64,000 nt of DNA from Aquiflexum balticum DSM 16537 (lineage in GTDB: Bacteria; Bacteroidota; Bacteroidia; Cytophagales; Cyclobacteriaceae). Positions 25,460 to 27,551 of this stretch are shown here, piece after piece (the stretch's first letter is position 1; every line of letters starts with the position of its first letter). The notes below the pieces were generated by a model. That model saw only the letters and a program-made list of their open reading frames with translations, did not search any database and was not told where the DNA came from. The translations under genes were made by a program, and so were the position numbers. The DNA lies in assembly GCF_900176595.1 (NCBI RefSeq), contig NZ_LT838813.1, positions 1,240,001-1,304,000 of the forward strand. Reading direction: 5' to 3'.

Positions 25460-25960
25460 TTATTTTAACTGATTAATTAATGTTTTTAATTCCACTTCTG
25501 TCACTTCCCCTTCGTGAAAAGATCTCGTTCCATCCGATTTAATGAAAAGGGAAGCAGGTATTGCTCCCGACCAAGAAGTATCAACCTTATCAATCCACTT
25601 GTTATAATCCACATCGTCCAACAGATAAACAGGGGCTTTTATTCCTTTTCTTTCAATAAAGGAGGTCACTCTTTCCGGCTTTCTGCCATCATCCAATGAT
25701 ACAAAGAACAATTCAATGGAGGGGTCCGAAGCATTTAAATTTTCAAAATAAGGCATTTCTTTAATACAAGGTCCGCACCAGGTAGCCCAAAAATTGTAAA
25801 TCCTGAATTTATCTGATGGAGTATCGACCATCTTTTCAAACTGGGCGAAGCTAATTATTTCGAAAGATTTTTCTTCTTTGATTAAGTCTCCCTTAATCAA
25901 AAAAGAGAAAATCAAGAAAGCAATGAATGGAGAAGATAAAATATGCATTTCAGTTTTCAC
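25460..25960 (-). CDS. TlpA-like periplasmic thioredoxin
   Basis: The 166-residue precursor has a signal peptide or N-terminal anchor (residues about 5-22). It contains NFWATWCGPCIKEMPYFENL, the TlpA/ResA-type active site, then LFFVSLDDGR and a cis-Pro strand GAIPASLFIKSDG. TlpA-like proteins reduce disulfides in the periplasm, for example during cytochrome c or oxidase maturation. Its function here cannot be narrowed. It is the first gene of a two-gene operon with the CNTCP redoxin, and its upstream side is the 676-base candidate origin region. Confidence 0.85.
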   Translation of the reverse strand: MKTEMHILSSPFIAFLIFSFLIKGDLIKEEKSFEIISFAQFEKMVDTPSDKFRIYNFWATWCGPCIKEMPYFENLNASDPSIELFFVSLDDGRKPERVTSFIERKGIKAPVYLLDDVDYNKWIDKVDTSWSGAIPASLFIKSDGTRSFHEGEVTEVELKTLINQLK

Positions 25961-26636
25961 TTTTTCTGTTAAAATTAAACTTTTCCAATTAACACATTAT
26001 TAATTCAGCAAAACTATTTCAACCGAAAATGGCTGTAAAAATAAATTATTATTTACCCGCCTTTTTTCCATAAAAATTTATCGATTCAATGCTTGATCAA
26101 GACCCGTATTAAGGCAACGAAACAGAGAATAAATAGTTTGACCTTATATCAAATTGTTGAAATACAGTCAATAATCTAACCTGCAAAAAAACAAGCTTTT
26201 TTTATCCACATTAATCCACACTTATCCACAGCACAAAGAAAAAACACCTTAAATACCTGATATTCAGTATTTTATCAAATTATGAAAATAGGTGGTTTTG
26301 TGGATATCTATCTGAAAATGAGTTTTTTAAATAGTTTAATATTCTTATTTAATAGAGGTAAGCCAGTTTAAAAAAATGAAAATCTTTTTTTGGTAAGACA
26401 GTCGATCTGAAGAAGAATATTTTCCTTCATAACATTTTATTTTTTGATTTCAATAAACCAAACAAGCTGAAAAAATCATCTTTTTGTATCAAATCCAATA
26501 CGTCAAAATCAAAAAACAAATTATAAATTTTGAATATTTACCTGATGCAATATTACAATTCAATAAAATTGATAAGTCAATTGATTTTCGAACATAGTAT
26601 AAGGTGTGTTTCTTATAAATGGTATTGAGCAAGAAA
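25961..26636. other. Candidate replication origin (oriC) region with DnaA boxes
   Basis: This 676-base gap has no credible ORF. At 26202-26210 and 26222-26230 are two perfect TTATCCACA DnaA boxes; between them at 26212-26220 is TAATCCACA (one mismatch). The three start exactly 10 bases apart, one helical turn, on the same face. A fourth, inverted, box (TGTGGATAT, one mismatch) is at 26299-26307. Both flanks hold long A/T runs (for example 26038-26056 and 26321-26352) that could serve as an unwinding element. No dnaA gene is in the window, which is common in Bacteroidota. Alternatives are a DnaA titration or regulatory site. Confidence 0.5.
26202..26230 (+). promoter_or_regulatory. Three phased DnaA-type boxes
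   Basis: TTATCCACA, TAATCCACA and TTATCCACA at 26202, 26212 and 26222, each separated by one base. The outer two equal the consensus TTATNCACA; the middle has one mismatch. An inverted partner lies at 26299-26307. Confidence 0.65.
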
Positions 26637-27551
26637 TCATTGTTCTTCCAAAAGATCATTGTCCAAGACCGTAATGATATTGGCGATCAGGCCAACAGTT
26701 GAGGTATAAAAATCCGGTTGGATATTTTCGAAAGTATCTGTCGTTTTGTGATAGTCTTTGTGGTCTTCTACTCCAAAATAAATGAAGGGAATACCGTTTT
26801 TATGAAATTGGGAATGGTCAGAGGCATTGGTCCAATCATCCCTACCTGTACCGGGAACATCATGTCCAAAAAGTAACTTAGGTTGTTGGCTTATTGCTAC
26901 TTTTTCAATAATTGGTTTTAAAAAAGGGTAATGGTATGTTCCTGAGGCATAAATTTCATTGTCATCATTTCTACTGATCATATCCATGTTGATATTTAAA
27001 ATTACTTGCTCCAAAGGAAAAGGAAAATCATCCACCAAGGCTTTTGCGCCTTGATGGCCCATTTCTTCTGCATCCAAAGCAACAAACATCATGGAGTGCT
27101 TTGGCCTGTTATTTGAAAAGTATTCAGATAAGGCCAAGACAGCCGCAGTGCCAGAGGCATTATCATCTGCTCCATAAAAGATTTCATCCCCTTTGCGTCC
27201 CAGATGATCATAGTGGGCCATGATTACAATCAGTTTTTCAGATTCTGAACCAGGTAGAAAAGCAACAATATTCGCTGCCTTTTCATATAACTTTCCATCT
27301 CGACGATTGCGGAAATCAAAGTATTGTGTAAGATCAGGGTATTGGGATGTAAGCCCGAGTGAATAAAAGCGTTCTTTTATATATGCTCTTGCCTGAAGGC
27401 TTCCATCAGAAAGGGGCTTCCTTCCTTCCAATTCCTCGGAAGATAAATATTTGATATCCTGAAGAAGCTGTTCATTATTGATGTTTTGGGCGGAAGTAAA
27501 CTGTGGACAGGAGAGGAAAAAAAGTAGAAGAAAATTCAATAAATACTTCAT
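26637..27551 (-). CDS. M28 family zinc aminopeptidase, secreted
   Basis: The 304-residue precursor begins with a signal peptide (MKYLLNFLLLFFLSCPQFTSAQ). The metal ligands of M28 peptidases are seen in order: MAHYDHLG, YGADDNASGTAAVL, ALDAEEMGHQGA, NINMDMIS and a C-terminal SDHSQFHKNGIPF. Two zinc ions and a catalytic Glu (in DAEE) are expected. Such enzymes remove N-terminal amino acids from peptides outside the cytoplasm. The SCPQ in the signal could be a lipobox, but cleavage after SAQ is as likely. Its start is divergent from the next gene (73 bases apart). Confidence 0.88.
   Translation of the reverse strand: MKYLLNFLLLFFLSCPQFTSAQNINNEQLLQDIKYLSSEELEGRKPLSDGSLQARAYIKERFYSLGLTSQYPDLTQYFDFRNRRDGKLYEKAANIVAFLPGSESEKLIVIMAHYDHLGRKGDEIFYGADDNASGTAAVLALSEYFSNNRPKHSMMFVALDAEEMGHQGAKALVDDFPFPLEQVILNINMDMISRNDDNEIYASGTYHYPFLKPIIEKVAISQQPKLLFGHDVPGTGRDDWTNASDHSQFHKNGIPFIYFGVEDHKDYHKTTDTFENIQPDFYTSTVGLIANIITVLDNDLLEEQ

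Follow-up and report, generated by a model that had tools for sequence, protein, structure and literature searches.

Does the cluster of DnaA boxes in a non-coding gap of the Aquiflexum balticum chromosome mark oriC itself, or a separate site at which DnaA is controlled? An earlier note on this DNA had favoured the origin, with a DnaA-controlled site or a titration cluster as the fallback. We examined the window, that is, the whole 64,000-nucleotide stretch (positions 1,240,001-1,304,000 of the 5,987,095-bp, one-contig genome G000), together with related genomes. The features of the locus are as follows, in window positions.

25460-25960, minus strand: left neighbour, a TlpA-like thioredoxin-fold gene (Pfam Redoxin, AhpC-TSA and Thioredoxin)
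26184-26201, plus strand: A-tract, CAAGC and T-tract before box 1, from alignments, in many closer relatives only
26187-26330, no strand: whole conserved element, about 140 bp, non-coding (match of model R1, G000 1266187-1266330)
26202-26210, plus strand: DnaA box 1, TTATCCACA; TCCACA core invariant in 42 aligned rows
26212-26220, plus strand: DnaA box 2, TAATCCACA; the variable box, missing in distant relatives
26222-26230, plus strand: DnaA box 3, TTATCCACA; TCCACA core invariant in 42 aligned rows
26257-26267, no strand: CTGATATTCAG, palindrome-like; family consensus CTGATTATCAA/G
26262-26274, plus strand: IHF-like site, 8 of the 9 positions of WATCARNNNNTTR; placed by eye
26299-26307, minus strand (inverted): DnaA box 4, ATATCCACA, which is TGTGGATAT on the plus strand; TTATCCACA in many relatives
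26312-26329, plus strand: 3' motif CTGAAAATGAGTTTTTTA, in closer relatives with consensus CTGTAAATGAGTTTTTTA; absent from most of the distant relatives aligned
26637-27551, minus strand: right neighbour, an M28 peptidase gene (Pfam Peptidase_M28, E 7.5e-39)

A tight DnaA-box array in a non-coding gap

All four boxes claimed in the earlier note are present, and the 676-base gap between the two flanking genes is as it described: the gap holds no ORF of 100 aa or more, the minimum length in the ORF list, and minus-strand genes are the majority on either side of the array according to that list. The A+T content of the gap is 74.4%, compared with 60.7% for the window. Counted with at most one mismatch, single boxes show no excess in the window (63 observed against 72.3 expected), so that only the cluster is unusual. 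Two copies of TWATCCACA 0-30 bp apart occur in the whole of G000 only as the two overlapping pairs of this array, and the reversed-pattern control gave 0 and 0. A density comparison, which the note had proposed as a check, came out in favour of the array: it is the tightest, with no tighter cluster in the sampled 28% of G000 or 16% of G113, a genome of another genus. The element accordingly has the DnaA-box array that an oriC requires, and equally the local excess of consensus boxes that a titration cluster requires. Strand polarity of the boxes in G000 was considered and rejected, as the window holds reverse matches; among the matches listed, reverse-strand ones end at about 0.62 Mb, which mimics polarity, and the counts are whole.

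Conservation and architecture of the element

A blastn search with a 270-base query found matches, some of them short, in 52 of 196 family genomes. Model R1, a sequence-only model built from 35 rows, whose E-values are rough and to which stricter filters were applied, matched 168 of the 196 at E <= 0.001, covering 74 of 84 genera; under these filters, 28 of the 196 had no match, including the closed genomes G012, G030 and G090. One blastn match in G012, at 3.88 Mb, was set aside, having one box core within 400 bp and no model match; it is possibly a decayed copy. The second genome of the same genus (G001) has a match, and an Aquiflexum lacus record carries the element.

An exact-pattern scan of genome contigs returned 26 records, 22 of them from Cyclobacteriaceae genera or under such labels. 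The remaining four are also Cytophagales: two are so labelled, and the others are Rhodonellum and Anditalea, which NCBI taxonomy places in Cytophagaceae of the same order. Of the 291 genomes examined across the order, 108 had a match to model R2 (42 rows), by hand count 42 from the same family and 66 from others. Among those 66, 13 matches reached E <= 1e-7; the weaker ones, counted without a control, may be chance. The boxes are therefore kept in relatives, and their loss in close relatives, which the earlier note had named as evidence against an origin, was not seen. Conservation of the sequence strongly supports the view that the array is a functional DnaA-box element.

The spacing of the boxes was parsed by script in 41 of the 42 aligned rows, one row being lost to a base beside box 4. 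Boxes 1 and 3 are consensus boxes exactly two helical turns apart, the distance being 20 bp in 40 of the 41 rows and 19 bp in one; box 4, inverted in the aligned rows, follows box 3 at 73 bp in 24 rows, 74 bp in 12 and 72 bp in 5. The IHF consensus is WATCARNNNNTTR. The central motif fits 8 or 9 of its 9 positions in 34 of the 41 rows, compared with 14.5% among shuffled sequences; coming from related genomes, the rows are not 41 independent cases. By motif, the element thus has a datA-type layout, with DnaA boxes on either side of an IHF site. The motif is also nearly palindromic, and a dimeric protein other than IHF is a possible ligand.

Neighbouring genes and readings outside replication

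One alternative is that the element is an operator through which DnaA or another factor regulates a neighbouring gene. The TlpA-like gene of the window does have the element upstream, and among the 23 named loci with enough sequence the first left gene is TlpA-like in 15; yet in the other 8 that gene has changed and the element stays, as it does where the first right gene, an M28 peptidase in 8 of the 23, is something else (15 of the 23). These counts rest on our own ORF calls. Replacement neighbours included MazG, GH3 and FUR, identified by Pfam, and a CLC channel and the gltX product, recognised by eye only. Since the flanking genes differ between genera, the element is not the promoter of one gene. 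A scan for sigma-70-type promoters, with other promoter types outside its scope, found no promoter-like site inside the element, and only 3 such sites in 800 bases against 4.4 by chance. We regard the operator reading as very improbable.

An RNA element was also unsupported. Rfam gave no match inside the element, and covariation analysis found no pair: the sole consensus stem, formed by box 1 and the inverted box 4, shows compensation in 0 of its 8 pairs. These two results indicate that the element acts as DNA, not RNA. A phage or plasmid source likewise found no support, with no blastn match to the element in phage and plasmid collections and 0 exact matches in viral contigs.

Position relative to a dif-like site

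The sequence TATAATTTAYATTATGTTAA, or a near variant, picks out a single best site in most of the closed genomes; G189 and G445 each have another close match. Judged by this pattern, it is likely the dif of the order, an identity supported by strand asymmetry that fades and turns at about 4.0-4.45 Mb in G000 and turns between 2.2 and 3.1 Mb in G195. Sixteen one-contig family genomes with a match were available; G123 was left out and 15 were used, the length of G095 being rounded. In all 15 the element and the dif-like site occupy opposite halves of the chromosome, with element-to-dif arcs of 0.337-0.497 (median 0.467). If places were uniform, the chance of 15 of 15 arcs this high would be 5e-8, a value that applies to genomes that are in fact related. 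The dnaA gene lies elsewhere, with arcs of 0.077-0.286 in 6 of 6 genomes. Outside the family, weaker matches read by hand gave arcs of about 0.43 (G199), 0.43 (G204), 0.23 (G230), 0.47 (G302) and 0.41 or 0.50 (G445).

This location bears on the proposal that the element is the chromosomal oriC, where DnaA would load onto boxes 1-4, the adjacent A+T-rich DNA would melt and bidirectional forks would start. Being the tightest array in the sampled parts of G000 and G113 agrees with such a role, and near-universal presence in the family and the box, IHF-like site, box layout are equally expected of an origin. In 8 of the 15 closed genomes the element is only 26 to 112 kb off the dif antipode, but in the other 7 it is 277 to 794 kb off. 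In G095, one of the two 16S genes lies 10 kb from the element and points away from it; the other fits too, so that both are compatible with an origin at or near the element of that genome. The 16S search found none in the other five genomes. The 100-bp flanks of the core are 67.4% A+T on the left and 71.3% on the right (48 loci), little different from the 66.7% of ordinary intergenic DNA (189 G000 stretches), which weighs at most mildly against an origin here.

Strand asymmetry around the element

Two measures of asymmetry were used: third-position GC (GC3) skew, and a classifier that separates leading from lagging genes, for which genes outside the origin half of G000, G113 and G012 served as training data (AUC 0.73, 0.90 and 0.70 on transfer to each genome from the other two). 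Away from the origin half, leading minus lagging GC3 skew was +0.106 in G000, +0.173 in G113 and +0.064 in G012. A first classifier, trained on G000 only, placed its best switch at 1.539 Mb and its next at 1.204 Mb; the former reflected an unusual block at 1.48-1.54 Mb made up of plus-strand genes, and this version was replaced by the three-genome training. The block itself (G000:C1:1480001-1540000) is mostly plus-strand, its genes look lagging in the right replichore, and it may have been inverted recently or acquired as a cluster.

Pooled over 27 loci (26 named records plus the window; 209 genes), GC3 skew was -0.014 for genes pointing away from the element and +0.015 for genes pointing toward it. 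The difference of -0.029 (bootstrap 95% -0.084 to 0.028) indicates that genes directed away from the element do not resemble leading-strand genes. Per-locus skew signs were dropped in favour of the bootstrap, being confounded by pooled normalisation and gene-strand bias.

In G113, genes are right-type both in the 25 kb left of the element (+1.03 ± 0.21, 24 genes) and in the 25 kb right of it (+0.93 ± 0.17, 23 genes). All 25-kb bins between -75 and +100 kb are positive, by about 0.35 or more; the bin from -100 to -75 kb is weak (0.29 ± 0.20), and left-type genes start past -100 kb. The left-type stretch at 1.00-1.12 Mb has few boxes and few orthologues among the fetched G000 parts and may be foreign; if it is discounted, the switch could lie up to about 280 kb left of the element. 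Around the element G000 and G113 are collinear, though in opposite orientation, and the G113 result is therefore not accounted for by a recent break next to the element.

The signal near the element is weak in G000 (25 kb left, +0.49 ± 0.15; 25 kb right, -0.09 ± 0.22). There the classifier puts the switch about 75 kb left of the element, beside a mobile island with group II introns, and the skew scan is best at 0.98 Mb, 1.5 units ahead of 1.20 Mb and 9.3 units ahead of 1.26 Mb. The methods thus differ on the place of the switch, the skew scan giving 0.98 Mb in G000 and 0.80-0.94 Mb in G113 and the classifier 1.20 and 1.115 Mb, a disagreement attributable to blurring by atypical islands nearby. 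Group II introns recur in the island beside the G000 switch (G000:C1:1194324-1210000), as does a recombinase/transposase-like pair.

Ten 2-kb samples of G195, the first at 4.48 Mb and the last, past the end of the contig, at 0.18 Mb, all lie between the element at 4.43 Mb and the antipode of dif at 0.35 Mb; they were left-type overall (-0.89 ± 0.19, 24 genes; controls: left -1.20, right +0.66). These samples put the origin of G195 at least 0.6 Mb from the element, in a genome where the element match is weak, box 4 is poor and the nearest samples, up to about 0.25 Mb away, are ambiguous.

The switch in asymmetry sign required at an oriC was accordingly absent from the element in the 27 pooled loci and in G113, with G195, whose element is weak, in support, and the picture was least clear in G000. 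Together these results speak for forks that traverse the element instead of starting at it. The earlier note had made oriC its first choice and a GC-skew minimum elsewhere its test; that choice is mostly unsupported, as the switch lies elsewhere in G113 and, less clearly, in G000, although the location in the half opposite the dif-like site is compatible with it. In the stretches sampled around the G000 and G113 switches we found no oriC proper, and the lack there of any comparable DnaA array counts against an element separate from oriC. We nevertheless judge it unlikely that the element is oriC.

DnaA boxes elsewhere in the origin half

In the sampled stretches of G000 and G113, TTATCCACA is commoner in the origin half. 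In G000 its density is 3.0-6.4 per 100 kb between -1.0 and +0.5 Mb relative to the switch, against 0-2.5 elsewhere; in G113 it reaches up to 15.9 per 100 kb in the origin half. A comparable box trend is described for E. coli in the excerpted text of PMC12371093.

A box-rich block was seen at G000:C1:622592-631341 (12 TTATCCACA) and at G113:C1:1258864-1266082 (7 TTATCCACA), in orthologous genes that are placed differently in the two genomes; it is possibly a conserved titration block. As a rival oriC the G000 block at 622-631 kb was rejected, because its 12 boxes are dispersed over 9 kb and the orthologous genes lie elsewhere in G113.

The origin-half enrichment fits a further reading, in which the element is a plain DnaA titration site within an origin-wide field of boxes. 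Titration, however, needs numbers of boxes, not conserved spacings of 20 and 72-74 bp, an inverted box and a central motif, and we consider this reading decidedly unlikely.

Comparison with known systems and interpretation

The regulatory sites datA and DARS were worked out in E. coli (PMC5742627, excerpted text). As described there, datA resembles the element in being non-coding, in having boxes on both sides of one IHF site, and in lying near but not at oriC and being replicated early. The essential boxes of datA all point in one direction, whereas box 4 of the element is inverted; box number and spacing differ as well, the likeness being one of layout. Because of the difference in box direction, we do not file the element as datA.

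The DARS sites of E. coli lie far from oriC, whereas the element is in the origin half. In the same excerpts (PMC5742627), DARS1 and DARS2 each have a core of three boxes at constant spacing, one of them turned against the other two, an arrangement that the element fits in orientation, and DARS2 uses IHF, for which the element has a like motif; the odd box of the element, unlike theirs, stands 72-74 bp off, across the IHF-like motif. DARS and the element share orientation only.

The R1-IHF-R5M part of E. coli oriC is A+T-rich and has an IHF site between boxes (PMC5742627, excerpted text), a likeness that favours the origin reading. The element, by contrast, has fewer boxes, no strand switch and only a putative unwinding element, and because the asymmetry test failed we do not file it as oriC. 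DnaA-box clusters that repress untimely initiation are mentioned for Bacillus subtilis and Streptomyces coelicolor in PMC5742627, and their likeness to the element goes as far as that one-sentence description. Titles and abstract openings, covering few subscription journals, yielded no such element in Bacteroidota and no experimentally mapped oriC in the group.

Taken together, we hold, with confidence evenly divided, that the element is an origin-linked DnaA-control element, separate from oriC, which works like datA or DARS with an architecture of its own. This comes close to the fallback of the earlier note. DnaA would bind boxes 1-3 along one face of the DNA, and an IHF/HU-type protein would bend the centre and bring DnaA on box 4 to boxes 1-3. 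The complex might then change or sequester DnaA, by ATP hydrolysis as at datA, by nucleotide exchange as at DARS, or by titration. Lying in the early-replicated half of the chromosome, the element would be duplicated soon after initiation, and its effect would thereby be tied to the firing of the origin.

More tentatively, and with somewhat less than even confidence, we propose for Cyclobacteriaceae, and probably for more Cytophagales, a dedicated DnaA-control element that is not oriC, consisting of two co-oriented boxes at a two-turn distance, an IHF-like bend in the centre and an inverted box: a Bacteroidota counterpart of datA and DARS with its own architecture. If the oriC reading were true instead, strand asymmetry would misplace the origin in this family. 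The element, present in 168 of 196 family genomes, offers a precise target for studying initiation.
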